From NCBI GenBank assembly GCA_031289145.1, contig JAITQA010000060.1, forward strand, positions 1 through 43,011: a DNA stretch of 43,011 nucleotides, given 5' to 3'. The stretch is from Dysgonamonadaceae bacterium. Lineage in GTDB: Bacteria; Bacteroidota; Bacteroidia; Bacteroidales; Azobacteroidaceae. The notes under the pieces are model-generated. The model was given only the letters and a program-made list of their open reading frames with translations. It ran no database searches and was not told where the DNA came from. The position numbers and the translations under genes were made by a program. Positions 295-35,212 of this stretch are shown piece by piece; the first letter of the stretch is position 1; every line of letters starts with the position of its first letter.

Positions 295-3200
295 TTATTT
301 AACAACAACTTTCACTACCTTAGAACCGTTCTTCACGATTACTACACCCTTAGGAGCAGCAAGGATTTGATCGGCTCCGGAGATAACAGCAGACTTGATT
401 AAGCGTCCGTCGATGGTATAAAGATCAACTTTACCGCTTCCTTCAAGCACTCTTACACCTCCGTCTACAGCGAAGATACCTGATTTACCGATTACTTGAA
501 TGCCGGTACCGCCGGCAATCTTACTATATTGGAAGATCAAAGCATCTTTCAAATCTTTCACAAATACCAAGTGGTTATTTACTTCAGACAAGAAACGATA
601 ATCGCCATTGTTGGTCTTGTAGTTGGCATTCGATACAACATAGAAAGCTTGTACATTTTCAGCTTGTGCATCTTCACCGCCTATCAGCGATTTGTCTTTT
701 ACATACCAGAAACCGAATGTTTGTACAAAGTTTGGATCTGCAGTTATTTTGTCAGTTGCTATAGCGGCAATCTTAGTTTTGTTGAAATAAGCCAAAGCGA
801 AGTTAATACCGCTGTAGTTGTAAACATAATCGCCGGTTGCCGGATATGAATCCGTCAGGTATTGTCCATCCAATTTGATCCTGAAGTACCAAATCGGTTT
901 CGGCAATATCTGGCCAATAGTTGTATCGCCTTCAAATTCGAATGTTAATGCAACAGCATTACTTTTACCGGTAAAGATACCATAATTAACAGGGGATTGA
1001 CCGCTTTGGGCAATGAAAGTAACGCCATCCAATGCATAATCCGTCAATACACCGGTAGCAGTATGATCTGCAGAAGTTAACGCATCTTTTATCGGCAACC
1101 ATTCGTTACCTAAACTGGCTTCTCCACCCAATAACCAGGTAGTAACCTTAATCGGATCTATCTTGGAGTAATCTACCGAATAGATATTATATTCCAAAGA
1201 TTTATCAACAATGCTAGTTCCTATCAAAGCATCGTCTAATCTGCGTGCTGTTACATACTTGGTCGAAGAACCTGCGACTACCAAATATGGATAATCGTTA
1301 ATAGCCAAATCCAAAGTTTGCAAATAAACCGAAGGCACAGTTGTACCCTTAAATGACGTCTCATCATCTATACCTTCTTTGTATGGTAAACAGAATTTAT
1401 ATTTCGGTAAATACTCCGGATATTTCCAATATTCCAGCAGCGAATCTCTTGCAGTTTCAGTTAACCTCGTCCAGTAAACAGAGTCTACGCCTGATTTCGC
1501 GATATCTACATTCAAGAAATATTCTTGATGATCTACTTCATCTACATAAGAGAATGAATAATAAGGAATAATATGTACACTATCTACAGGCACATCAGCG
1601 TGAACATCTGATAAATAACGTTTGTTTTCCTGATATACTTGCAAATAAGTTGCATCTTTATAGTCAACAAGATCCAACACATTTTTGATATATGTGCGGT
1701 AAGCGTAAGGTTTGTATCCCTTCCAATTTTCACCACTTGTACGATAAATAGGCGTGTTAATACCATCTACCTTATCAGTCAAACTACGATCCTTGAACGG
1801 AGTTTCTATGATCGCCACTTTCAGTGCAGATACATTCTTAGAAATGCTTTCTAAGTTAAAGAACGGCAAATTATGATTGACACAAGTAAGCGTCAAAGTA
1901 TCATATACGGTCTTAAATGGAGTTGTTCCATCAAGGTATCCGTCAACATTGATTGCTAAGTAAGCATCAGGGGCTTTCGGGAGAGGATTCTTGTCTACAA
2001 AATAATACTTACCAAGCAGTTTTGCTTGTGAAATAGCTTGTGTGTAGGCATTTTTCAGTTCCGCTTCAAACGTAAACAGAAAATCATCATTTGTGCTTTC
2101 ATTAACTTTCCAGTGCGCATTCAGATTGAATACACCTTTCCTTGCTCCATCTTCTTTGTAAACATCGGAAATGGAACCGTTAAACGTGTAGTACTTATCT
2201 TTTCCATCCGCATCAGCGGTTCTTTGATTATTGTTCTGTACCAAGACATAATCGCAGTCAGGTTTTTGATAACCCGGCGTTTTTACCTTGAATTCGAGCG
2301 GAACCAAGTTACCACCTGTAGCACCCAACGAGTTGAATACAACCAACCTTTGAGCAGGACTTCCAACATACGAATACTGAGATACACGCCATGCTTCACT
2401 TACGTCATTTCCTGCACAGCTTGATTGAGGAGCAGCTTTACCCAGTTTTGTATTGAAATAAATCCCCGATTCACCTGTGTTTGTACTATAATTCCACTTA
2501 TAAGAAGCCAAAGGCAGATAAATAAACTCACCATAGAAGCCATTCTCGTCCGCATCACCCATACATCCGCTGATAGCAAATAATTGCAAAGCGCGTGATT
2601 TATCAGAAGATGATCCGGCAATTATGTTTTTCTGCCATGCCAACAAAACACCATTAACATCAGGAACAGTTGCAGACAGTTCACTCATCTCGGATTGCTT
2701 AATAACTGTCAGATATTCACCTTCTGCATTTTGTACATAGTACAATGGAACTTCCAAATCATTCTCAAAAGTTTTTGTTCCACTGACTGCTCCGTGGGTG
2801 ACGGAGGTCGACCAGTCTGTTAAGTTTGCTGCGCCGTACGGAATCTTTACAGTCTGATTCAAATCTGATGGATTCCATCTCTTGATTGAAGTCACATAAG
2901 TATGTTTCAATTGAACACCTGCGTCAGCAACTATAGCTGAATTATAAGCTGGTTCTACTTTTTTGCCGATAGCCTTCTTAGTATCTATTCCTTTATACCA
3001 AATTTGATTATCCAGCTTCACGCTCAATAAACGTTCCTGAAGCATCCAGAGCGGATCAATAAATTGTTGCGGGCAGCAACCTGGATCAGCTTCTTTCTTC
3101 ACAAATGTGAAACGCGTACCGGTAGAAGTTCCCGCATAACCGCGAGTGGCATAGATATAATCGGAAGCATTCGAAAGGGATGCGAAACATACCTCACCGC

Positions 3201-6198
3201 CACCGTTTATTACAGCAGCTGGATTTGTACTTTCAATATCCGGCCATTTATTCAGACCAAACTTAATGCCAGTATTCGTAGGATAGTAAGTATAATGCGG
3301 GATATAGAACTGGAACAAGAAGTTGTCGTTCGCTTTATCACCTACTAAAGGTTGATACAAACGAACCGGAAGGGCGTTTTCTATCGTAGCGTCTGTGAAG
3401 ACAAGACCTACTTTCTCACGGTTGGTTCTTCCTGCATAGTTCACGGTATCAAACCGTAAATATTTGTCGCCATATTTTACTAAGTACCATTTGTAAGTTT
3501 CGCCATACAATACATCAAGTCTATTGTCTGCATTATTTCTAATGACATCAATCTTAGTTTTCCTATCGGTTTGATCCAACGGAATAAATTGCAAAGCGTC
3601 AGTTGCATCTGTTGTTTTCAACCGAGCAACTGTAACTAAGCCATTGGCACCGTTGTTAATTTTCACAATAGCTGTGTCCAATTTCAAGCTATTGTTAACC
3701 GTTAAGGCCTCAGTGATATCGAAATTACCGGTCAAGAAAGTATAAGCCGTCAAAGAGTCTGCTTTTGCGAAAGTAGGTTCAGACGAAACTATAGCAAGAC
3801 CATCTACTATTTTACCACCGGTATTAATAATTTTGTCGTCGCCCTCCTTACCAAGATATTGTTCACCGGTAGGCACATAGTAAATCGGTTTCAAAGCCAC
3901 CAATAAACCATGGCAAGCAGGAATATTATTTTTATCATCAACATACGTATATCTTTTCAAACCATTCATTTCTATGGTATAGCTTACGCTTTTCTGATAA
4001 TAAGTAGAATCTGTTCCTGCTGTTCCTACATTACCTATTACAATAGAGTTAGCTCCATGTTCCCAAGGTGAATTCGGAGCCAAACCGATGGTAGCACCCA
4101 AATCATCATACAATTCCAAATAGAAAGCACCATCATAAGGAGCGTAAGGAGCACTCGGATTGAGACCAAATTCATGATCCTTCATCTTTTTTATCTTCCA
4201 TGTATCATGGGTCATACCAGCAGCCGTTACCAGTGGATTACGATCGAACCAGTGCGTAGAAGTGGCCCAAGCCTCAGTAGTAGTTCCAGGACGACCAAAA
4301 TAACCTTCGTCCGCATAACTACCCGGTGCAACACCCGGTTTACCTGCTATCAGACCATTTTCAACCAAATTACCACCTGCCAAAAGAGGATCATCAAATC
4401 TGTACTCAAGCGTATCACTCAACATATTGATGAAACGGTAAGCCACAACTTTATTATTCACTTTAACAGCAGCTTGTACTTCCCAATGAGCGGCCATATT
4501 GACTGAATCATAAGGATACCTCCAATAGTCTTTTTCGGTAGATAACAATTTTTCTTTCGGAACAATAACCAATTGTTTACCCGCTTTACTCCCTGTCAAC
4601 TGCGTAGAAAGTACATATTCTCTATTGTATTGATAACCACCAGCTTTGAATGCCTCGCGTATTTGACTACCACTTTTTCCATTGCCAAGCGTGTCGGGAT
4701 ATACTTCCAAGAAGTAGAAACGACCCGACAAATCATCATCGTCATCCTGACAAACTAGACTATACGAACGAGGAGCATAGTCGGACATAGACTGCTTTAT
4801 ATTAGGCATTGTACCTATAATACCAGGCGCGGCAGGCTTACTTGTCAAATTACCATTCCAAGAACCGATTTGCAGACCTTGGGTTTTATCTACAGCCGGA
4901 TCAGTAGGGCCACTCGGAGCAATGTTAATATCGTTGTAAGTCAACACTGCGTTTGCTACAATCTTATCCGGCGTTATTGTTGCACCTGTGAAAGTTTTCT
5001 TTTCTCCATATTCCCAATAGTAAGAAGCAGCAGGATAAAGAACAAATTCTCCTTCTTCATTAATCCAGATAGCAAATTTCTGCAAACTAGTATAATACCT
5101 GGAATCATCATCTGTAGGAACATTAGTGTCATCTGCAAAATATGAATTATATTTCCAGGCAGAACTTACATATTCCCATTTGTAATATTCTCCATATTTC
5201 CGTACTTCCAAATTGTTGGCATAGCCGCCATCCATCTGACTTTGGGTTTCCAAAGCATTTACACGACTTATGGACAATACTTCACAAGAATTCTCCGGTG
5301 TAGCCAAGGTAAACAACGGAATAACATGTTGAACAGCACTGATTTCCTGTGTTCCTTTATTAGAATTAAAGCTCGCGTTCGGCACAATAATGTTGTGAAC
5401 ATTGGAAACACCAGTGGCTTCTGCTTCTACGTAGTCCACTTGTTTAACGGTAAACACAGAGAAGGCTTTCTTGTTTGCTAAACCTGCGTTAATCGCAGTT
5501 GTAGAATTTACTTCACCGTTGGTTTTGTTGTAATAAACGTCATTCAAATCAACAGCTTTGTAAGCACTCAAAGTGCCAAACGAAGTAAAACTACAATCTT
5601 TAAAATCATCGGCAGTTGCCCAACGACCTGACATAAGTTCTGTACTTACATACAAAGGATAAAGCTTTGTTGCACCCGAAGATGCTTCAACTTCTGAGTA
5701 CTTCCTAATAGAAAGCACACCTGCAGCATTGTGAACAACCAGCAATAAATCAGGATATTTCACACTGTCCCCTGTCTGAACAGCCAGATAACCGCTGAAA
5801 AGACCGGTGGCAATCGTTGCACCCGACACTGTGGTAACTGTTGTACCAGAACCTGTAAAAAGAACAAAGCGGGTCTGATCAACGCCGCCATAAGGCAATG
5901 TAAGCGTTGTAGTGCTAGCGCCATCTATGTACTTAAAATCGACATAATTCGCGGCAGGATTGCTGACCGTGATTTTGTCGTAAGTGCTGTACGAAGGCTT
6001 GACACCCTCTTGGTGAATAAAGGTACCTGTACCCGGAACAAATGTCAGCTTAGAGGTAAAAGTCGTCGTAGCCGTAGCATAATTTGACCACTCAACAGCT
6101 TGGGCAGGAGAATTCACCCAGACCTTATGCTGTGCATTTGCCTGAAAAGCGCCCAAAGCCACGAAGGCTAAGAGCAAAGTAAATAGTTTTCTTTTCAT
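295..6198 (-). CDS. Giant secreted protein with C-terminal sorting-like domain (DUF6383-like)
   Basis: This 1967-residue protein begins with a clear Sec signal peptide (MKRKLFTLLLAFVALGAFQ, cleavage near ANAQ-H). The last 60 or so residues have the pattern of Bacteroidales C-terminal sorting or DUF6383-type domains: a beta-rich segment with VDLYTIDGRLIKS, then a PKG turn and the end KVVKVVVK. The body is Thr/Ser/Asn/Tyr-rich, without membrane segments or a catalytic motif I recognise. It contains degenerate internal repeats: one pattern of LQ-FAI, then GEF, then P-ASY-W-Y occurs near residues 370-400 and again near 1202-1237. Proteins of this class are probably exported through the outer membrane, perhaps by type IX secretion, and displayed on the surface; the function is unknown. 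The gene stands alone, with a strong terminator behind it and nearly 400 bp of AT-rich DNA in front. The reading frame is intact despite its length. Secreted CDS: high confidence; the DUF6383 name: moderate. Confidence 0.85.
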   Translation of the reverse strand: MKRKLFTLLLAFVALGAFQANAQHKVWVNSPAQAVEWSNYATATTTFTSKLTFVPGTGTFIHQEGVKPSYSTYDKITVSNPAANYVDFKYIDGASTTTLTLPYGGVDQTRFVLFTGSGTTVTTVSGATIATGLFSGYLAVQTGDSVKYPDLLLVVHNAAGVLSIRKYSEVEASSGATKLYPLYVSTELMSGRWATADDFKDCSFTSFGTLSAYKAVDLNDVYYNKTNGEVNSTTAINAGLANKKAFSVFTVKQVDYVEAEATGVSNVHNIIVPNASFNSNKGTQEISAVQHVIPLFTLATPENSCEVLSISRVNALETQSQMDGGYANNLEVRKYGEYYKWEYVSSAWKYNSYFADDTNVPTDDDSRYYTSLQKFAIWINEEGEFVLYPAASYYWEYGEKKTFTGATITPDKIVANAVLTYNDINIAPSGPTDPAVDKTQGLQIGSWNGNLTSKPAAPGIIGTMPNIKQSMSDYAPRSYSLVCQDDDDDLSGRFYFLEVYPDTLGNGKSGSQIREAFKAGGYQYNREYVLSTQLTGSKAGKQLVIVPKEKLLSTEKDYWRYPYDSVNMAAHWEVQAAVKVNNKVVAYRFINMLSDTLEYRFDDPLLAGGNLVENGLIAGKPGVAPGSYADEGYFGRPGTTTEAWATSTHWFDRNPLVTAAGMTHDTWKIKKMKDHEFGLNPSAPYAPYDGAFYLELYDDLGATIGLAPNSPWEHGANSIVIGNVGTAGTDSTYYQKSVSYTIEMNGLKRYTYVDDKNNIPACHGLLVALKPIYYVPTGEQYLGKEGDDKIINTGGKIVDGLAIVSSEPTFAKADSLTAYTFLTGNFDITEALTVNNSLKLDTAIVKINNGANGLVTVARLKTTDATDALQFIPLDQTDRKTKIDVIRNNADNRLDVLYGETYKWYLVKYGDKYLRFDTVNYAGRTNREKVGLVFTDATIENALPVRLYQPLVGDKANDNFLFQFYIPHYTYYPTNTGIKFGLNKWPDIESTNPAAVINGGGEVCFASLSNASDYIYATRGYAGTSTGTRFTFVKKEADPGCCPQQFIDPLWMLQERLLSVKLDNQIWYKGIDTKKAIGKKVEPAYNSAIVADAGVQLKHTYVTSIKRWNPSDLNQTVKIPYGAANLTDWSTSVTHGAVSGTKTFENDLEVPLYYVQNAEGEYLTVIKQSEMSELSATVPDVNGVLLAWQKNIIAGSSSDKSRALQLFAISGCMGDADENGFYGEFIYLPLASYKWNYSTNTGESGIYFNTKLGKAAPQSSCAGNDVSEAWRVSQYSYVGSPAQRLVVFNSLGATGGNLVPLEFKVKTPGYQKPDCDYVLVQNNNQRTADADGKDKYYTFNGSISDVYKEDGARKGVFNLNAHWKVNESTNDDFLFTFEAELKNAYTQAISQAKLLGKYYFVDKNPLPKAPDAYLAINVDGYLDGTTPFKTVYDTLTLTCVNHNLPFFNLESISKNVSALKVAIIETPFKDRSLTDKVDGINTPIYRTSGENWKGYKPYAYRTYIKNVLDLVDYKDATYLQVYQENKRYLSDVHADVPVDSVHIIPYYSFSYVDEVDHQEYFLNVDIAKSGVDSVYWTRLTETARDSLLEYWKYPEYLPKYKFCLPYKEGIDDETSFKGTTVPSVYLQTLDLAINDYPYLVVAGSSTKYVTARRLDDALIGTSIVDKSLEYNIYSVDYSKIDPIKVTTWLLGGEASLGNEWLPIKDALTSADHTATGVLTDYALDGVTFIAQSGQSPVNYGIFTGKSNAVALTFEFEGDTTIGQILPKPIWYFRIKLDGQYLTDSYPATGDYVYNYSGINFALAYFNKTKIAAIATDKITADPNFVQTFGFWYVKDKSLIGGEDAQAENVQAFYVVSNANYKTNNGDYRFLSEVNNHLVFVKDLKDALIFQYSKIAGGTGIQVIGKSGIFAVDGGVRVLEGSGKVDLYTIDGRLIKSAVISGADQILAAPKGVVIVKNGSKVVKVVVK

Positions 6199-6542
6199 AA
6201 AAAAACAAATTAAGTTAATAAATAAATGTTAATATAATAAATAATAATTCTCGTTCATACACGCACTATTTGCCAATATTCCCGGAATTTAGGTGCAAAG
6301 AAACAAAATTTTCAGCAAAAAAGCAAACATTTTTTGATAAATTTCTAACAATGCTGTTTTTCAAAGACTTATTTTGTTTATCAGCCATCAAAACGGTGCA
6401 ACCGGTATGCAAATGTAATTTTTTTTATCTTACCAATCATTTTTAATTAAAACTTATTTTGCCTTCCCTTACCAAAGCGGGGTTTTAATGTACAAAACTT
6501 GTTTTTTTGAGGACAAAAGTTGGAATTGGGGTAATCGACTTT
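6199..6542 (-). other. AT-rich upstream region of the giant gene
   Basis: No gene is seen here. On the minus strand the only exact TAnnTTTG match is TACATTTG at 6410-6417, which would give a 5' leader of about 200 nt; no exact TTTG lies at the right spacing upstream of it. A weaker TTTCTTTG lies at about 6296-6303. The start site of the giant gene therefore cannot be fixed. Confidence 0.35.
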
Positions 6543-6590
6543 AGGTCTTTAAGGTCTTTAAGGTCTTTAAAGTCTTTAAAGTCCTTAAAG
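6543..6590. repeat. 9-bp tandem repeat array (AGGTCTTTA), copy A
   Basis: Three exact AGGTCTTTA units (6543-6569) are followed by the variants AAGTCTTTA and AAGTCCTTA and a partial unit. The array ends five bases before the stop codon of the decayed gene at 6596-7008. The same array in the same orientation lies on the other side of that gene at 7042-7100. Copy number differs between the two arrays, as expected for slippage-prone repeats. Confidence 0.9.
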
Positions 6591-6595
6591 ACAGA

Positions 6596-7008
6596 TTAAA
6601 GCCGATTATTGTTATTTCCGCTTCGTTTTTGGATACGCATTCTGGTCATTCGTTCCTTGAATCCACCTTCATTAAGAAATTGTTTGCCAAGCGTATTTAA
6701 TTGTCTAAACAAGAGATAGTCTGTCTGATTAATCAGGCAGATAGCAATGTTGGCAATCGTTTCCGGCGGGCGTGTTTTCACTATCTGCATGAAAAAAACG
6801 GTATCATTGAAGTAGCGGAAGCCGCACATCCTTCCACAATGTTTTGCTTTCCCGAACGGGCAGCTTGTTTCATCTGGTCAATCGTACGGTCACCCCTTTG
6901 GAGAAAATTTTGGATAAAGTAGCAGGTGATGTCGTAAATAGCTTCGGCCTTTTGGTAGCTGAAGAGTTTGCGGTAGTTCCCACTGGGAGGGAAAAGAGAA
7001 TCTTTCAT
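6596..7008 (-). pseudogene. Four-helix-bundle (S23-like) protein gene with suffix domain, internally deleted
   Basis: The first half, starting at 7008, reads MKDSLFPPSGNYRKL, continues with YQKAEAIYDITCYF and RGDRTIDQMKQAARSGKQNI, then VEGCAASATS. That is the N-terminal signature of the four-helix-bundle family once called 23S rRNA intervening-sequence proteins. It then hits a stop near 6804. The second half is in another frame (6829-6596) and reads KTRPPETIANIAICLINQ, then FLNEGGFKERMTRMR, the C-terminal suffix domain of the same family. The helices normally between these blocks are missing, so an internal deletion of perhaps 80 codons left a frameshifted junction near 6800-6830. The remnant lies between two arrays of the same 9-bp repeat. 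The family's function is poorly known. The pseudogene call rests on my memory of the family's layout. Confidence 0.75.
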
Positions 7009-7041
7009 AGTTTTTTTTTCTTTAAAGATTTTAGTGACTTT

Positions 7042-7100
7042 AGGTCTTTAAGGTCTTTAAGGTCTTTAAGGTCTTTAAGGTCTTTAAAGTCTTTAAAGTC
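7042..7100. repeat. 9-bp tandem repeat array (AGGTCTTTA), copy B
   Basis: Five exact AGGTCTTTA units (7042-7086) are followed by AAGTCTTTA and a partial AAGTC. The orientation and the order of variants match copy A at 6543-6590. Unit length is a multiple of three, so a plus-strand frame reads through it as repeated Ser-Leu-Arg; that frame is not considered a gene. The array sits between the decayed four-helix-bundle gene and the 3' end of the TPR gene. Confidence 0.9.
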
Positions 7101-7114
7101 GCTGTTTAAAATTT

Positions 7115-7978
7115 TTAATCGCTTGCCGCTTTCCTGATTTCAGCAGCTGCCTTAGCATCGTATCCCAAGGCGACAGCTTTCTCAAGGTCTTCGAGTGCGG
7201 CTTTTTTTTCACGAAGCAGGAGCTTGGCTTTACACCTTATTATATATGGATAGGGTTCGTGATATGCCGCTCCATACAAACGGAGTGCTCGGGTGGCATC
7301 GGCAGAGGCTTTTCCCGGCTTATTGGCCAAGAGGTATACTTCGGCGCGTCCGGCATACAGACCGGGCAGCTCCGGCTCTTTCTCAATCAAATAATTATAG
7401 ATTTTCTCGGCGTCATCGTAATCGCCCCTGAATTTGGCCAAAGAGGCCAATCCCATCCGCGGATAGAGGCCGTCGGGATTCAAGGCGAGCATCCGGTTGA
7501 AATCGGTTTCCGCCAAATCGGTATTCCGCATTTGCAAATACAACAAACCCCGCTGATACAAGGCTTCCTCATCCTTGGTATTTTCGGCCAATAAGGCGGT
7601 ATAATCTGCAATGGCATTGGCCGGCTTGCCCATTTCGGCAAACAAAGCGGCGCGGGATGCCAAAAAAACCGTGTTCTTGGGATAGGTTCCCAAAGCGGCG
7701 GTATACGACAAAAGCGCCGCATCCCATTTGCCCAATCTCCGCTGAATGGTGGCAAGATTATTCAATACAAAAGGATTCAGTTGTCCGCCCGGATCGTTTT
7801 CAAGGTACTTTTTCAAGGCGTATTCCGCAGAGTCTAACTTATTTCCGTCGATATACGCAAATGACAAATCCAACCACTCCTGCCCCTGCTGCGCACGTAA
7901 AAAAACGCTGCAGGCAGGGATCATCAGGAGCAGCAGCAGTATCCGGCAACGCAAATACTTGTCGAAATACAGGTTCAC
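7115..7978 (-). CDS. Secreted TPR-repeat protein, coupled to rprY
   Basis: This 287-residue protein has a hydrophobic N-terminus (CRILLLLLMIPACSVFLRAQ) that looks like a signal peptide, so it probably acts in the periplasm. The rest is helical TPR repeats: blocks such as NPFVLNNLATIQRRLGKWDA, then TKDEEALYQRGLLYLQM, NPDGLYPRMGLASLAKFRGD and PGLYAGRAEVYLLANKPGKA are spaced by about 34 residues. TPRs bind other proteins; no enzyme motif is seen. The start is a GTG only three bases after the rprY stop codon, which suggests translational coupling. The next ATG (residue 19) would cut the signal peptide in half. It is the last gene of the rprX-rprY operon and may act in the same envelope or stress response; that is inference. 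Confidence 0.85.
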   Translation of the reverse strand: MNLYFDKYLRCRILLLLLMIPACSVFLRAQQGQEWLDLSFAYIDGNKLDSAEYALKKYLENDPGGQLNPFVLNNLATIQRRLGKWDAALLSYTAALGTYPKNTVFLASRAALFAEMGKPANAIADYTALLAENTKDEEALYQRGLLYLQMRNTDLAETDFNRMLALNPDGLYPRMGLASLAKFRGDYDDAEKIYNYLIEKEPELPGLYAGRAEVYLLANKPGKASADATRALRLYGAAYHEPYPYIIRCKAKLLLREKKAALEDLEKAVALGYDAKAAAEIRKAASD

Positions 7979-7981
7979 TGC

Positions 7982-8704
7982 TTATTTTTTAGGATTTTCG
8001 GGCACAGTCGGCGCAATCAATTTGTAACCCTTGCCGTGGATATTCATGATTTCCACTTTGGGATCGTCTTTCAACAATTTCCTGAGTTTGGTGATGTAAA
8101 CATCCATACTCCGGGCGGCAAACTGATAAAAATCGGGATGCGGATGCCATATCGTATTGACGGCATACTCGCGATCCAGAATTTCATTCATATTGATACA
8201 CAAATTGACCAACAAATCGCTTTCTTTTGTAGTCAGTTTGGTGGCAGCGCCGCCGCCGGTTAACAGCTGTTTTTGCGTATCGAACAGGAAATCTCCGATA
8301 TGATAAACAGGCGCTTCTTTGCTTTTTTTACCATTGATTCTCCGCAAAATCGCTTCAATACGAAGCAAAAGCTCCTCCATACTGAAAGGTTTCGTCAGAT
8401 AATCGTCGGCTCCGGCCTTAAATCCTTCCAGAACATCTTCTTTCATGTTTTTTGCCGTCAGAAAAATGATCGGTATCTGAGAATTGAAGGTACGGATATC
8501 ATGCGCTAAAGCAAAACCATCTTTTTTAGGCATCATCACGTCCAACAGACAGAGGTCGTATTTTCTACCGGGAAAAGCATACGCACCGGCTTCTCCATCA
8601 GGGAATAAATCTACATCAAAATCTTTTGCCTGCAGATATTCTCTTAACAACATTCCTAAATTTTCATCATCTTCGCACATGAAGATTTTAATTTTTTCTT
8701 CCAT
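7982..8704 (-). CDS. rprY: OmpR-family response regulator RprY
   Basis: This 240-residue regulator has a receiver domain in the first 120 residues: acidic pocket E11-D12-D13, phospho-acceptor Asp55 in LLDVMMPKKDG, Thr83 in FLTA and Lys105 in TKPF. The second half is a winged-helix DNA-binding domain of OmpR type (TTKESDLLVNLCINMNEIL, then RSMDVYITKLRKLL and IHGKGYKL). The opening CEDDENLGMLLREYLQAK closely matches Bacteroides RprY. It lies 95 bp downstream of the partner kinase gene on the same strand and is followed after three bases by a TPR gene. It presumably receives phosphate from RprX and controls stress-related genes. The 12-bp palindrome in the kinase-regulator gap could be an internal control site. 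Confidence 0.93.
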   Translation of the reverse strand: MEEKIKIFMCEDDENLGMLLREYLQAKDFDVDLFPDGEAGAYAFPGRKYDLCLLDVMMPKKDGFALAHDIRTFNSQIPIIFLTAKNMKEDVLEGFKAGADDYLTKPFSMEELLLRIEAILRRINGKKSKEAPVYHIGDFLFDTQKQLLTGGGAATKLTTKESDLLVNLCINMNEILDREYAVNTIWHPHPDFYQFAARSMDVYITKLRKLLKDDPKVEIMNIHGKGYKLIAPTVPENPKK

Positions 8705-29596: not shown

Positions 29597-29941
29597 ATAA
29601 TTTTTCTTGTTAATATTCAGTCACTTATACTTATATAAAAATAAAAACTGAAAATAAAAAAAATAAAAAATAAAAAAATAGTTTCGATTTATTTGTGAGA
29701 TATATTTTTTATCAGTACATTTGCATATACATCAAGCGTGATGTATTTATTTTCAACTATTACAAGCCGCATTTTGTCGATTGGAAAACTCATCAAAAAT
29801 AACACAATTCCGAGACAAGCTTTACCGGGAATGGCGGGCCGCAACCTTAGGGTCAAGTTTTATGCTCAGCGGATTACAAATACGGTATCGCTCTCAAATC
29901 CTGTCATACGGAGTTTTGCATATCCACTGATGCGGCTTTTC
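29597..29941. other. Non-coding region with orphan promoter
   Basis: This 345-bp stretch lies between proB and the nitroreductase 3' end; both genes are on the minus strand. The first 120 bases are very AT-rich. It then holds a plus-strand promoter (29692-29723) and a palindrome (29727-29746). The following 190 bases have no convincing gene on either strand; an 88-codon plus-strand frame (29738-30004) runs antisense into the nitroreductase gene and resembles no family I know. Confidence 0.5.
29692..29746 (+). promoter_or_regulatory. Orphan promoter with palindrome at the start site
   Basis: TTTG (29692-29695) and TACATTTG (29716-29723) are 20 bp apart, an ideal Bacteroidetes promoter on the plus strand. 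ATACATCA (29727-29734) and TGATGTAT (29739-29746) form a perfect palindrome with a 4-base spacer, right where transcription should start. No gene is seen downstream in this orientation. Confidence 0.5.
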
Positions 29942-30544
29942 TTATTGCTGATAGCCAACGGTCTGGGTCAGCAACACTTCCTGTTTGTCATTCAACGTCA
30001 GTAATTTATGCAAACCATCCTTGTCGTATGAGCCGCGAACGACAGTAATCAAACCTTCCGAAGCACAGAAAAGATAAATATTCTGGGAAATAAATCCACA
30101 ATCCGTTAGCGCTGCATCCCGGTTAGATGCTTTGTCCAGATTCGCAACAAAAATAAAATTAAGCGGAGCTGTTGTCACAAAAGCTTGCATTCCGGTCATT
30201 GCCTGATGGTTGCCGGAAACTTTCAAAATCAGCTTGTTTTCTTTCGCTTCATAAAAATAAACGCCCGATTGTAAAGAAATGTACAAATCAATCTCTTGTC
30301 TATCCTGCGAAGTAGGAACCGTTCTTTTATTTTCCCGGTTAAATCCGTAAGCAGCCCATGCCAAATCGGCAATCGTTTGTAAACTCAAGTCTTTGGCAGA
30401 GAAATTCCGGTTGCTTTGCCGGTCATTGAAAGCTTCCATCAAGGGTTTTCCGCCTGTTTTCTGCGGTGCAGGCAATTGTATATCCTGTGCCATACAGGAA
30501 ACAGATAAACTTAACAATGCAAAAGAAAAAAATAATTTGTTCAT
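29942..30544 (-). CDS. Periplasmic nitroreductase-like (SagB-type) protein
   Basis: This 200-residue protein has a signal peptide (MNKLFFSFALLSLSVSCMAQ). The rest matches the nitroreductase/SagB-type fold: MEAFNDRQSNRNFSAKDLS, the usual 'RRS.R.f' FMN-binding start, LADLAWAAYGFNR (here IADLAWAAYGFNR), then DCGFISQNIYLFCASEGL near the end. Such proteins bind FMN and carry out NAD(P)H-linked reductions, but this branch is exported. It is therefore probably periplasmic, and the substrate is unknown. It is monocistronic. The gene lies next to a RiPP-like peptide gene, but the signal peptide argues against a role as a cytoplasmic peptide-modifying enzyme. Confidence 0.85.
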   Translation of the reverse strand: MNKLFFSFALLSLSVSCMAQDIQLPAPQKTGGKPLMEAFNDRQSNRNFSAKDLSLQTIADLAWAAYGFNRENKRTVPTSQDRQEIDLYISLQSGVYFYEAKENKLILKVSGNHQAMTGMQAFVTTAPLNFIFVANLDKASNRDAALTDCGFISQNIYLFCASEGLITVVRGSYDKDGLHKLLTLNDKQEVLLTQTVGYQQ

Positions 30545-30642: not shown

Positions 30643-30858
30643 TTGGAAGGATATAATCTGAAAAAACGCTATATTTGTGACGTCAATGCAGAAATACAAT
30701 CTTTCTTGCCGGACTATTTTATTCAAATCAACAAAAACTGCATTGTAAATGGAGAAAAAGTAAAGTCTATTGTTGCCAAAGACAGAAAAGTAAAGGTGGG
30801 TGGGGAGTTTTTTGCTTACTCAGTGTCGGGAGGCAAAGTATTCAAGTATTATTACTAA
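30643..30858 (+). pseudogene. Truncated LytTR-type DNA-binding domain
   Basis: The 71-codon frame has no ATG; only a TTG could start it, and an in-frame stop lies at 30607. Its sequence (AEIQSFLPDYFIQINKNCIV, then NGEKVKSIVAKDRKVKV and AYSVSGGKVFKYYY) has the C-terminal half pattern of LytTR domains: 'L...FiRihrsyiVN...I..i......v.v.......vS'. The N-terminal half of the domain and any receiver domain are absent, and the nearby DNA holds no remainder. It is either a gene remnant or, less likely, a very small regulator. It lies 278 bp upstream of the peptide precursor gene, on the same strand. The LytTR assignment is by pattern only. Confidence 0.45.
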
Positions 30859-31061
30859 ATTTGTCACATAAAAGTAATGAATCTTTTTTTACAACTATTT
30901 TAGGAGCGCCACCTAAAGACTGTTGGTAAAAATGCCTCCTTGAGAGGTCGAGTCATACGCTTTCGAATCGTTAAATGAAATTATAAACTTTAAAATCATC
31001 AAGAAGGCGCAACAAAGATAGGAATTATTTTCAAGAACTAAAAATCCTGTACAGTTGCAGG

Positions 31062-31135: not shown

Positions 31136-31348
31136 ATGAAGACAAATATAAAATTAAATGCTTTGGCTTCTCAAAGTCTTTCGGGAGTCGAAATGAACCA
31201 GACTAAAGGGGGCAACAATGGCTGTTGTGCATGTGCATGTGCTTATGAAGGTCAACCCGGAGGATCCAGTTATAATGATAATGGGGGAGCTAATAGTCGT
31301 GCTGGGAAAAGTTCTCCCCAATTAGATGCACCTCTTTGGTGTCCTTGA
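31136..31348 (+). CDS. GG-Bacteroidales natural-product precursor peptide
   Basis: The 70-residue peptide starts at the ATG at 31136 (MKTNIKLNALASQSLSGVEM); upstream codons of the open frame look non-coding. The leader, residues 1-26, ends NQTKGG and fits the GG-Bacteroidales family of natural-product precursors (TIGR04149 as I recall it), usually cut after GG on export. The 44-residue core has Cys at 30, 31, 33 and 35 in GCCACACAY, a Gly/Ser/Asn-rich middle (PGGSSYNDNGGANSRAGKSSP) and a C-terminal tail with W68 and C69 (APLWCP). Related cores carry the same C-x-C-A-Y then GGSS-DN-AN pattern. No radical SAM maturase or PCAT transporter is in the window. A hairpin separates it from the GLPGLI gene downstream. 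Whether the product is modified, or what it does, is not known. Confidence 0.85.
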   Translation: MKTNIKLNALASQSLSGVEMNQTKGGNNGCCACACAYEGQPGGSSYNDNGGANSRAGKSSPQLDAPLWCP

Positions 31349-31424
31349 TCAATGTTTTTATGTCAATAATTGATCGGATAAGTTTAGATAAGTTCACTTT
31401 ATTTAATTAGTCCGATTCTTAAAC

Positions 31425-31462
31425 AAGGGGCTTTCTGTGATGATTTTATAAGAAAGCCTCTT
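31425..31462 (+). terminator. Hairpin behind the peptide gene (attenuator-like)
   Basis: AAGGGGCTTTCT (31425-31436) and AGAAAGCCTCTT (31451-31462) form a 12-bp stem with one G-U pair and a 14-base loop. No T-run follows on the plus strand, so it probably allows read-through into the GLPGLI gene and protects or enriches the precursor message. This role is inference. Confidence 0.5.
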
Positions 31463-31510
31463 TGAAATAATTAAAATTAAAAAAAAATTATAAATTTTAA
31501 AAAACAGGTT

Positions 31511-32368
31511 ATGAGAATTGGAATATTGTTAATTATGGTTCTGTTTTCAGCGAGCGGTTTGCGAGCACAAAACTTTCGTTATGCGCCAAGTTATGAAAAT
31601 CTGAACAAATACAGTGTAATTGATTCAGCTTATTTAAAATGTGCTTATAAACTAACTTATTTAAAAGACTCGCTCAAGCCGGAAGAAAAATCAAGCGATG
31701 CACAGGTATTATGGATAGGAAAGACCTGTTCCAAATATTACAGCCAATACGCTTTAGCTTACAACTTGTATGTAGTCGAATATTTAAAAAAACATGACAC
31801 TTATCCCCGAATAAAAGAAGTTGGCTCATGGACTTATGAATTATTCAAGCATTATCCGCAAGGGAAAGAAACCGTGACCGACATTGCTTCTATGCTACAG
31901 GGAAATTTTGTCTATGAAGAAGAAATGCCTGTTTTTGATTGGAAAATTACGAATGAAACGCAGGAGGTCTTGTCCTACAATTGTCAAAAAGCAACATGTT
32001 CATTCCGTGGGCGGATCTATACCGCCTGGTTTACCTTGGATATTCCGGTAGATAATGGCCCATGGAAGTTTGGCGGGCTACCGGGTTTGATTCTGAAAAT
32101 ATACGATTCGAAAAATCATTTTGTATATGAATGTGAGGGCTTGGAACAATTAAAAACCAAAGAGCCTGTTAAATTCTACAAGTTAGACTATACCAAAGTC
32201 AACCGTGAAGAACTGAATAAACTATACCGAAGGTTTCATGACGATTTTGCTGCTTATATGAAATTAAAAGGTGTAAAGGTGAATGTGATGGATCCGGAAA
32301 CAAAGAAATTTAAAACAGTGGACCATTCTTCTTCTAAACTTCCGTATAATCCGATTGAATTGGAATAA
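31511..32368 (+). CDS. GLPGLI family protein
   Basis: The 285-residue secreted protein has a signal peptide (MRIGILLIMVLFSASGLRAQ) and the family hallmark WKFGGLPGLILKI at about residues 185-197. YNCQKATCSFRGRIYTAWFT, just ahead of it, is also typical. GLPGLI proteins (TIGR01200) are found throughout Bacteroidetes, often near GG-leader peptides and TonB-dependent outer-membrane proteins; their role is not known. It should be periplasmic or on the outer membrane. It follows the peptide gene by 162 bp containing a hairpin, and precedes the large outer-membrane protein. Confidence 0.9.
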   Translation: MRIGILLIMVLFSASGLRAQNFRYAPSYENLNKYSVIDSAYLKCAYKLTYLKDSLKPEEKSSDAQVLWIGKTCSKYYSQYALAYNLYVVEYLKKHDTYPRIKEVGSWTYELFKHYPQGKETVTDIASMLQGNFVYEEEMPVFDWKITNETQEVLSYNCQKATCSFRGRIYTAWFTLDIPVDNGPWKFGGLPGLILKIYDSKNHFVYECEGLEQLKTKEPVKFYKLDYTKVNREELNKLYRRFHDDFAAYMKLKGVKVNVMDPETKKFKTVDHSSSKLPYNPIELE

Positions 32369-32510
32369 ATTTAGACTAATATGAAAAAAGAAAATATCTA
32401 TTTACACGCCGAAGACATAGCATTTTCTTTGCCCAATACGCCTCAACTTACATTTGAAGGAATAAGCGCCTTTAAAAAAAGTTTGACAAATGCCGAAGAG
32501 CATAAAAACC

Positions 32511-32546
32511 CCACTCTCCCCTCCCTTTGTGGGGAGGGGCCGGGGG
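32511..32546. repeat. GC-rich short interspersed repeat with hairpin
   Basis: CCCCTCCC (32518-32525) and GGGAGGGG (32532-32539) form an 8-bp stem inside a C-run then G-run element, strikingly different in composition from its AT-rich surroundings. Elements of this look (C-rich arm, TTTG loop, G-rich arm) recur between genes in Bacteroidetes. It lies in an open frame upstream of the outer-membrane protein, giving spurious codons. Confidence 0.6.
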
Positions 32547-32560
32547 AGAAGTCCTTTCAC

Positions 32561-35212
32561 ATGAAAAAATACGCATTGTTAGCTATATTCATCGTATGCA
32601 ATTGCTGTCTTCGTTTTTGTTATGCGCAAACAACCATCATAACGGGTACGATAAAAGACACAAAAGGGGAGCGCGTCTCACATCTTTCAGTGACGTTGAG
32701 GCAGGTATCCGACAGCGCTTTGCTAAGTTATGCCTATAGCAACGATACGGGAAATTATAAATTATCGTATTCGGGCGAGGAAAAAGAATTACTGGTGGTG
32801 GTTTCCGGCTTGGGAATCGCTACCGAAGCAAAAAAAATACAAAACAGCAATCAGGCGGTGGATTTTGTTGTGAAAGAAGCGGTATTTCAATTGAGAGAAG
32901 TAGAAATCAAACCACAGAAAATATATTACAGCAAAGACACGCTCAATTATTTGGTATCGGAATTTATGGATGGCAAAGATTTTGTTATCGGCGATGTGTT
33001 GAAAAAAATGCCGGGTATTGAAGTCTCTAATTCAGGAAAAATCAGTGTCCAGGGAAAGCCGATTAATAAGTTTTATATCGAAAATATGGATTTACTGAAC
33101 GGACGATATGGTATTGCTACGCAAAATATTTCCGCAAAGGATGTTGCTACGGTACAGGTCTTGGAAAACCATCAGCCGATAAAAGCCTTGGATAGCGTTC
33201 GTATCGCCGATCAGGCAGCCATTAACCTGAAACTCAAAGACAGCGCCAAAGGAACATTAAGCATTATGGCGCAGTTGGGAATAGGCGCATCGCCGCTATT
33301 GTGGAACAATGCCTTGACCGGCATGTATTTTGCGAAAGGAAAACAGAACATTACCGCTTATAAAACGAATAATACGGGGAATAATTTAACAAATGAATTG
33401 CGCTCTTTTACAACAAGTTTTGATTTATCTCCGGACAAGGTTACGAATATTCAAATGCCTTCTCCACCGGATATTAGCCGGAACAGGTATTTGTTTAACA
33501 ACTCCAATGCCTTCACAACGAACAATTTATTTACTGTTGGGAAAAACAAGGAATTAAGCCTGAATATTATCTATTACAACGACTACGAAAAAAGGGAAAG
33601 CGAAGCCCGTTCTTCCTATTTTATCACCGGTGATAGTTTGCTGCGGATAAACGAAAATATCCGTTCGTTCACCAACACCAATCGAATAGAAACAGAAATG
33701 CGGTATAACGAAAATGACGAAAACCGGTATGTGAATGATTTGTTGAATCTGGAAGGTTCGTGGGAGAATGGAAAAGGAGTCCTGACCGAATCTGCGATTG
33801 GACAAGATTTATACCGGCCTTCATTGAAGATACAAAATGCGTTTCACTTTATAAAGCGGTCTGGAAGCGCCGGGTTTGAAATTAATTCTCAAACAGGATT
33901 TATATCCACTCCTCAGCGCTTGACGATTACGCCGGGATTGTATGCCGGTTTACTGAACAATGGGGAGGATTATTTTGATTTGCGGCAGGATGCTCGCGCC
34001 AATACATTCGTTTCGAACAACAGTCTTATTTTTCTGTCTCCCCTTGTGCTTGGAAAATTTTTCGTAAATCCGATTGCCGGATTTATGGTGGAAATGGATG
34101 AGCTTCATTCCGACTTGTATCCCCGCGATATTTTGGGAAATCCGTTGGACTTGGTTCCTGACGGTATGAGAAACAAGCTGAACAGAAATCAGTATTCAAG
34201 TCGCATCGGCCTGAATGTAGATTATCGAATAGACCGATTCAAGTTTAGTGCACTGCTACCGCTGAATTATCGTATTTACAGCTTGAAAAACAGGATTGAT
34301 GCAAACAATAGCGAAAATCTCAATAAATTTTCCTTTGAACCTGCATTGAAGATACAATACATTCCTTCGCAAAAGGTGGATATTAACGCAAATCTGTCTT
34401 TTTACAACCGAATGAATGGCATTCAAGAACTATACAGCGGTTATTTATTGCAGACATACCGGAACCTGAATCGGTACGATAGCCGGTTTGCCGCTTCTGA
34501 AGGCAGTAATTATTCTTTGGATATAAAGTACAAAGATATTCTCAAAATGCTTTTTGTAAATGCAAACATTGCCTACAATCGGGCTGAAAACAGCGTCACC
34601 TACATCCAAACTTTTGAAGAAAATTTATTGCTTACGTCTTATGTAAAACAACCGAATGAAACAAATACCACCATCGCAACCGGTAAAATCAGCAAAGGCT
34701 TGGATTGGATGCAGTTTACTTCTGATTTTGGTTTGACTTATCTTACAAGTACTTCCCAACAAATCCGGCAGAATCAATTGGTGGACTCAAAAATTGAGCA
34801 AACGGGAATTTCGTGCCGCTTGAGCGCTGTTCCGGTCTCGTTTATTATCCTGACGTATTCAGGTGAATGGCAGCAAAGCCGGTCGGAAATTGAATTACAA
34901 AAATCGTTTCCGGTAATCCATTCCTTGACCAATACGCTCACGCTTGATTTTACTTTGTTCAAAAAAATCCGGATGGGTTCACAATTGGAACATTATTACA
35001 ATAATGCGGTACAAGGCGATAAACAGTTGTATTTTGCCGATTTGAGCCTGCATTATGTATGGAAACAAGCGAATTTTGAATTGGCCTGCAACAACCTGTT
35101 TAATACGAAATATTATACCAGAGCGTATTATAGCGATTTGAATACATATCGCTACAACTACGTAATTCGTCCTTCCAGCGTGTTATTCAAAGTAAAATTC
35201 AAACTGAAATAA
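32561..35212 (+). CDS. TonB-dependent-type outer-membrane beta-barrel protein
   Basis: The product of about 883 residues starts with a signal peptide (MKKYALLAIFIVCNCCLRFCYA), followed by a carboxypeptidase-regulatory-like domain (TGTIKDTKGERVSHLSVTLR and NDTGNYKLSYSG), a plug-like domain (VLKKMPGIEVSNSGKISVQG, then NKFYIENMDLLNGRYGI) and a long barrel ending in YVIRPSSVLFKVKFKLK. This is the carboxypeptidase-regulatory plus outer-membrane barrel family related to SusC/TonB receptors; no TonB box is evident. It may import or export a ligand, perhaps the upstream peptide. The ATG at 32561 is chosen over an in-frame ATG at 32381, since the signal peptide begins there and the 60 upstream codons include a GC-rich repeat. 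It is the last gene of the peptide-GLPGLI cluster. Confidence 0.88.
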   Translation: MKKYALLAIFIVCNCCLRFCYAQTTIITGTIKDTKGERVSHLSVTLRQVSDSALLSYAYSNDTGNYKLSYSGEEKELLVVVSGLGIATEAKKIQNSNQAVDFVVKEAVFQLREVEIKPQKIYYSKDTLNYLVSEFMDGKDFVIGDVLKKMPGIEVSNSGKISVQGKPINKFYIENMDLLNGRYGIATQNISAKDVATVQVLENHQPIKALDSVRIADQAAINLKLKDSAKGTLSIMAQLGIGASPLLWNNALTGMYFAKGKQNITAYKTNNTGNNLTNELRSFTTSFDLSPDKVTNIQMPSPPDISRNRYLFNNSNAFTTNNLFTVGKNKELSLNIIYYNDYEKRESEARSSYFITGDSLLRINENIRSFTNTNRIETEMRYNENDENRYVNDLLNLEGSWENGKGVLTESAIGQDLYRPSLKIQNAFHFIKRSGSAGFEINSQTGFISTPQRLTITPGLYAGLLNNGEDYFDLRQDARANTFVSNNSLIFLSPLVLGKFFVNPIAGFMVEMDELHSDLYPRDILGNPLDLVPDGMRNKLNRNQYSSRIGLNVDYRIDRFKFSALLPLNYRIYSLKNRIDANNSENLNKFSFEPALKIQYIPSQKVDINANLSFYNRMNGIQELYSGYLLQTYRNLNRYDSRFAASEGSNYSLDIKYKDILKMLFVNANIAYNRAENSVTYIQTFEENLLLTSYVKQPNETNTTIATGKISKGLDWMQFTSDFGLTYLTSTSQQIRQNQLVDSKIEQTGISCRLSAVPVSFIILTYSGEWQQSRSEIELQKSFPVIHSLTNTLTLDFTLFKKIRMGSQLEHYYNNAVQGDKQLYFADLSLHYVWKQANFELACNNLFNTKYYTRAYYSDLNTYRYNYVIRPSSVLFKVKFKLK

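Follow-up and report, generated by a model that had tools for sequence, protein, structure and literature searches.

The 43,011-nucleotide stretch analyzed here (the window) is the whole of one contig, JAITQA010000060.1 or C112 in our numbering (G, genome; C, contig; L, locus), of the Dysgonamonadaceae bacterium assembly GCA_031289145.1, a genome of 3.94 Mb in 169 contigs that is 96% complete. On its plus strand lie, in this order, genes for a precursor peptide with a glycine-glycine (GG) leader, a GLPGLI family protein and an outer membrane barrel resembling TonB-dependent receptors. An initial annotation had proposed a precursor of 70 residues with a leader ending in TKGG and the other two genes downstream, and this arrangement was borne out by profile searches. 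The precursor frame (31136..31348, +) opens with an ATG at 31136, closes with a TGA at 31346-31348 and encodes 70 residues (MKTNIKLNALASQSLSGVEMNQTKGG / NNGCCACACAYEGQPGGSSYNDNGGANSRAGKSSPQLDAPLWCP); the leader ends ...EMNQTKGG and the core begins GCCACACAYEGQPGGSSYNDNGGANSRAGKSSP... It scores 32 bits against NCBIfam TIGR04149 (GG_sam_targ_CFB), above the curated cut-off of 25, and is therefore unlikely to be a chance open reading frame (ORF). Leader and core are kept in relatives from G037 (71% identity), G024, G004 and G039 and on C151, another contig of the same genome. Fourteen aligned precursors have in common the core motifs C.C[GA]C, GGSS and N..AN followed by G, those of L132 and L054 diverging most. 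Compared with G037, the precursor has changed faster (nonsynonymous rate dN 0.22, synonymous rate dS 0.41) than the GLPGLI protein (dN 0.086, dS 0.35), and compared with G024 its replacement changes are fewer than its silent ones (dN 0.30, dS 1.07), all figures coming from a single method applied to short sequences.

The second gene (31511..32368, +) encodes a GLPGLI protein of 285 residues with a Sec-type signal. It reaches 198.4 bits against TIGR01200 (cut-off 50), carries the signature GGLPGLILKI and ends in PYNPIELE, a C-terminus found in GLPGLI proteins of the window type that is a possible docking tail. A C-terminal [YF]NP[IVL]E as a family-wide feature was dismissed, being present in only 30 of 106 full-length proteins. 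The window's protein also matches PF22252, the N-terminal domain of PNGase F-II, with 33.4 bits (cut-off 27.6), and with a profile built from 18 GLPGLI proteins the GLPGLI core matches the same domain in structure 4r4x (E 1.8e-5). The PNGase catalytic domain is lacking. In the passages of PMC9522356 dealing with it, the function of this bowl-like domain is called unknown, and its removal left enzyme activity unchanged. An AlphaFold2 model of the GLPGLI protein, built from a two-row alignment (window and L055), had a mean predicted local distance difference test score of 38.6 and was discarded.

The third gene encodes the TonB-receptor-like barrel of 883 residues (32561..35212, +). Its ORF is open from 32381. 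Since its first 60 codons run across a GC-rich inverted repeat and the signal peptide begins at 32561, the true gene most likely spans 32561-35212. The repeat (CCCCTCCC...GGGAGGGG, window 32500-32560) lies in frame ahead of this start, and an LPSPCGEGPG-like reading also precedes the barrel of a unit on C156 (L039 around 3000). A CarboxypepD_reg-like domain at residues 27-114 of the window's barrel stays below the cut-off; a carboxypeptidase-regulatory-like domain occurs in 13 of 15 members of the barrel family, and Pfam Plug (E <= 0.01) in two of the 15 aligned barrels, the window's not among them. The family profile matches the SusC homologue 8aa4, over its first ~110 positions only. The barrel resembles SusC-type TonB-dependent proteins in its signal peptide, its CarboxypepD_reg-like domain, a plug-like conserved stretch and the 8aa4 match, but differs from such systems in that it gives no full-length receptor match and that the partner position is held by GLPGLI (no SusD profile search was made). 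The motif LREVEIK in the barrel is what we take to be a possible TonB box.

The initial annotation had seen no modifying or export enzyme in the window. For SPASM domains and peptidase C39 this holds by profile searches of C112, which yielded no second TIGR04149 match either; ATP-grasp and lanthionine synthase genes were not seen by eye in lists of ORFs of at least 110 residues, without a profile search. A TIGR04148 maturase, the usual though not universal neighbor of such precursors, is not found beside the window's precursor. When the search was widened to the whole genome, as the initial annotation had suggested, the maturase pair came to light on C151, where the single TIGR04148 match at E <= 1e-15 is located. 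There, a precursor (843-1055; TIGR04149, 22.8 bits), a GLPGLI gene (1206-2168) and a barrel gene (2175-4835) are accompanied by the TIGR04148 maturase (5538-6788; 572.7 bits) and a TIGR04150 pseudo-radical S-adenosylmethionine (SAM) protein (6803-8029; 416.9 bits), after which a C39 exporter remnant of 44 codons is left. Window and C151 share 34% identity over 307 columns in GLPGLI, 35% over 884 columns in the barrel and 14 of 22 residues in the precursor leaders. Ahead of the C151 maturase (L032 4841-5540), a second copy of the precursor upstream region, 93% identical over 429 bases, is followed by remnants similar to precursor, GLPGLI and intergenic sequence, apparently a decayed duplicate of a precursor-GLPGLI unit. 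The genome holds nine places matching TIGR04149 at E <= 10, six of them above cut-off, and six GLPGLI matches, five of them above cut-off. Five C39 frames of at least 700 residues all lie on contigs other than C112, and together with the TKGG leader they are consistent with C39-dependent export of the GG-leader peptide. A further GLPGLI-barrel unit, on C69, is followed by two frames (L038 194-2294, -), one small and repressor-like and the other for a membrane protein, which presumably resemble BlaI and M56/BlaR1.

Matches to the window peptide at E <= 0.01 occur in five of 45 genomes of the family, its own included. In G037 a precursor-GLPGLI unit is followed by the contig end; in G024 barrel, precursor, GLPGLI, maturase, pseudo-radical SAM protein and C39 stand in a row, the C39 gene being cut by the contig end; in G004 and G039 the precursor has secreted-looking proteins of other kinds as neighbors, GLPGLI not being seen there. 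The same row of six genes is present in G197, G158 and G169. The last of these parallels the window's genome, as it has an enzyme-bearing operon on its contig C54 and two enzyme-less precursor-GLPGLI units on its contig C1. Altogether the precursor stands directly upstream of GLPGLI in six genera (g1, g8, g50, g60, g61, g123). Among 294 genomes of the window's order, TIGR04149 is above cut-off in 29 (33 at E <= 0.001, with 49 places), TIGR04148 in 20 and GLPGLI, among the matches listed, in 69. Of the 49 TIGR04149 places, ten have one of the 123 GLPGLI places among the matches listed no more than 2 kb away, compared with ~0.02 expected for 3.5 Mb per genome and uniform placement; the rows of G224 and G287, above cut-off just together with their neighbors, were excluded from this count. 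Four of the 20 TIGR04148 genomes (G000, G158, G169, G197) have a GLPGLI gene no farther than 4 kb from the maturase. In 20 further TIGR04149 regions, the slot between precursor and maturase is filled by another secreted-looking protein of ~400 residues in L212, L213, L215, L218 and L231. A GG leader with a core-like stretch continues in frame into a GLPGLI protein (326 residues) in G100 (L136 12181-13161 (-) and 11980 (-)), the fused frame lying inside a tandem array of GLPGLI genes.

How GLPGLI genes are accompanied in general was assessed with 80 regions by place (L132-L211), which together with the loci of the window's genome cover 110 of the 123 listed GLPGLI places above cut-off, 13 lying outside. 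With six other loci these make 86, of which 85 were considered. A GLPGLI cluster member is found in 83, a barrel cluster member in 76 and both in 75, and several of the remaining loci reach a contig edge; GLPGLI and barrel are a conserved pair. The GLPGLI loci also hold C39 in eight, TIGR04148-like genes in six and pseudo-radical SAM genes in six cases. A link to two-component systems was judged too weak (histidine kinases in 14 loci, response regulators in 13). Among the small frames upstream of GLPGLI, many have Sec-type signal peptides and cysteines. Under a rule written after these frames had been inspected (start at ATG, 38-125 residues, two or more Cys and either GG at 21-32 or a hydrophobic signal), a small peptide lies upstream of 30 of 69 GLPGLI genes with room for one and of 8 of 203 other large frames (Fisher 5e-14), a count that includes loci picked for holding a precursor. 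With these precursor-chosen loci removed, the figures are 20 of 55 GLPGLI genes (18 of 49 loci) versus 6 of 173 control frames (p 1.6e-9) or, if three Cys are required, 16 of 55 versus 4 of 173; upstream of barrels they are 0 of 20.

The accepted Sec-type peptides (n=19) have 58-124 residues and, past residue 18, two to six Cys; they are found in L141, L142, L144, L145, L150, L156, L160, L163, L164, L167, L168, L169, L174, L176 and L180, among others. At least one of the accepted small frames, that of L181, looks doubtful. Eight small peptides, seven of Sec type and one of GG type, gave no meaningful match to Pfam or NCBIfam families. Both kinds of locus are combined in G065, which has a Sec-type peptide, GLPGLI, barrel, maturase, pseudo-radical SAM protein and C39, its TIGR04148-like maturase scoring 292.9 bits, just below the cut-off. 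These data suggest that the GLPGLI-barrel pair often works with small secreted peptides, and the loci with Sec-type peptides argue that it goes with the peptide and not with its modification.

The window and C151 precursors also share a candidate structured 5' leader element, termed R2 (30856..30954, +), which in the window lies 181 nt upstream of the precursor ATG. The two precursor upstream regions align with a score of 129 (100 shuffles 42.5, standard deviation 7.3), a similarity greater than expected from proteins just 34-35% identical. The similarity, which is invisible to blastn and was detected by local alignment, was initially read as that of a plain homologous upstream region, a reading that was not retained. 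The predicted shape is a two-tier hairpin with the loop NNCGCCA and a second small hairpin behind it; copies on C151 are at 573-666 and 5141-5234, and among these two and the window 5 of 14 pairs of the two-tier hairpin have changed on both sides. Beyond its three own members, a model searched over the 45 genomes found R2 in G024 (twice), G043, G025 and partially G023. In G024 (both) and G043, the element stands 188-194 nt ahead of the ATGs of Cys-rich GG-leader frames, which are below the TIGR04149 cut-off or give no match; over five genes the spacing is 176-194 nt (C151 176). When the seven hits are aligned without model fitting, 89.6% of cells pair (<=61% in slid versions) and 5 of 11 pairs show both-side changes, a count that 17 of 500 shuffles also attain; among five measures, two were attained by shuffles 17 and 78 times in 500. 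The whole upstream RNA folds no better than shuffles (z -0.15 in the window, -1.47 on C151), and Rfam gave no leader match at the gathering threshold in the window and L032, and the C151 copy had no match at E <= 5 either. The structure is supported by pair counts only, on few and related sequences, and since two of the seven hits are near-copies and E-values are rough, R2 is a candidate. Directly upstream of it, a frame of 71 residues (30643-30858, +) matches LytTR with 22 bits (Pfam cut-off 22.6; profile 38-70 of 98) and may be a remnant.

The reading that we find the most convincing, and on the whole probable, takes the window's three genes for an enzyme-less satellite of the TIGR04149/TIGR04148/TIGR04150 radical SAM system for ribosomally synthesized and post-translationally modified peptides (RiPPs), the peptide being modified in trans and GLPGLI and barrel handling it after export. 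The initial annotation, which saw the peptide as either matured in trans or exported unmodified and assigned its handling at the outer membrane to the GLPGLI/barrel pair, is supported. Our reading draws on family membership, linkage, the second, enzyme-bearing unit on C151, the shared 5' leader and the recurrent units, with and without enzymes, in other genera, all read from sequence, from which we infer the modification in trans and the handling of the peptide. The C151 maturase would recognize the shared leader KLNALA.Q.LSG.EMN and modify the Cys/Ser/Asn-rich core, a C39 exporter encoded at another locus would cut after GG and move the peptide to the periplasm, and GLPGLI and barrel would form a matched outer membrane pair binding the producer's own peptide. 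Sensing, re-uptake or self-protection by way of a receptor or importer would be the most likely role of this pair, an exit path being less likely and the direction of transport a guess.

Several results weigh against this reading. The barrel gives no full-length Pfam receptor match, and no barrel profile was matched among the 15 aligned barrels. R2 was not found in the 45-genome search before the closest-relative precursors (G037:C294 and G024:C23), and 16 of the 20 TIGR04148 genomes have no above-cut-off GLPGLI near the maturase among the matches listed. The C151 precursor stays below the TIGR04149 cut-off of 25 and the exporter next to it is a remnant, so that the C151 system may be decaying. 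In three of the six precursor-GLPGLI genomes tested, G037, G089 and G100 (completeness 87%, 97% and 99%), no TIGR04148 match at E <= 1e-15 was obtained; the unit can therefore exist without TIGR04148, or the assemblies miss it.

These three genomes, in which precursor-GLPGLI units are kept, speak for a product that is cut after GG and exported without radical SAM modification, the maturase being dispensable and the GLPGLI-barrel pair handling an unmodified peptide, and so do the many GLPGLI loci with Sec-type Cys peptides and no radical SAM gene in the fetched region. We nevertheless regard an unmodified peptide as unlikely, as the C.C.C, GGSS and N..AN core is much alike in enzyme-linked and orphan precursors, as would be expected of substrates of one enzyme, and as a maturase is present in the window's genome and in G169. 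It is rather unlikely, too, that GLPGLI and barrel are an immunity module that shields the producer against a peptide toxin made by itself or by a sibling, with enzyme-less units as immunity or decoy remnants. Such a role would fit G100, where GLPGLI genes stand in tandem and precursors are fused or shortened, and also the other secreted-looking protein that several TIGR04148 operons without GLPGLI hold in the same slot; on the other hand, the frames of the orphan precursors in the window, G169 and G089 are open over their full length, and between window and G024 the precursor has changed less by replacement than silently. That a common GLPGLI-barrel pair happens to follow an orphan precursor is very improbable. 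A chance grouping was what the initial annotation would have concluded had homologues never occurred with GLPGLI or had leader and core not been conserved; both are conserved, and the ten of 49 places within 2 kb contradict it, as do the six genera with the precursor directly upstream of GLPGLI and the two such loci in the window's genome, even though 35 of 55 GLPGLI genes with room upstream show no recognized peptide.

Beyond the satellite unit in the window, we put forward tentatively that GLPGLI and the TonB-receptor-like barrel could be a dedicated and widespread outer membrane system for the producer's own small secreted Cys peptides, which would arrive by two routes, with a Sec signal or with a GG leader, radical SAM enzyme and C39. 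The satellite units might then provide a combinatorial code for signaling or self-recognition, in which one maturase serves several peptide-receptor pairs under shared leader-RNA control. The RiPP cassette itself is known: 'sactipeptide-like' TIGR04149/TIGR04148/TIGR04150 cassettes with the same precursor family as in the window have been described in Bacteroides (PMC4573289). According to the passages of that paper on these cassettes, B. uniformis has the same pair of radical SAM and pseudo-radical SAM proteins, accompanied by an ABC exporter and a protein of the hemolysin secretion type, and the gene after the B. fragilis precursor encodes a putative lipoprotein; GLPGLI, barrel or enzyme-less units are not mentioned there. 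The window locus differs in the presence of GLPGLI and barrel and in the unlinked maturase. In the open-access PMC literature, subscription papers being outside the scope, no paper was recognized that links GLPGLI with RiPPs or small peptides; where GLPGLI is mentioned, the passages concerned name it only in gene lists or as a domain. The tie between GLPGLI and small secreted peptides is the wider and less certain claim. For a curated family to which these passages assign no function, a place behind small secreted peptides and beside a barrel offers a testable role, and it would give hints on the production of peptides that lack local enzymes and on what awaits them at the outer membrane.

A different element, R1, precedes GG precursors in other genera and consists of a short upstream frame ending [WH][FYH]LCK[TN][NI]L followed by a stem. 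It was found in L132 (5160-5242), L133 (5566-5650), L134 (12225-12309, -), L135 (6180-6264 and 7491-7576) and L225 (6597-6682). L137 was left out of the alignment despite its short upstream frame because its stem is poor. Compensatory changes affect 4 of 11 pairs of the stem in an alignment of six rows, half of which come from a single genome. The R1 model has 17 places in 10 of the 294 genomes, and some of those in G158 and G075 lie ahead of secreted-looking proteins of other kinds. R1 looks like a leader-peptide attenuator. It was dismissed as a part of the window locus, as the window's genome gave no R1 match at E <= 0.01.

Near the locus, a secreted protein of the nitroreductase family is encoded on the minus strand (29942-30544) that was absent from the initial annotation. 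It was rejected as a SagB-like tailoring enzyme, given its score of 38 bits (cut-off 78.4), its signal peptide and its opposite strand. Beside this gene lies a Bacteroidales-1 RNA (RF01693, a suggested 6S RNA) at 29765-29943 (+), detected with 145 bits.

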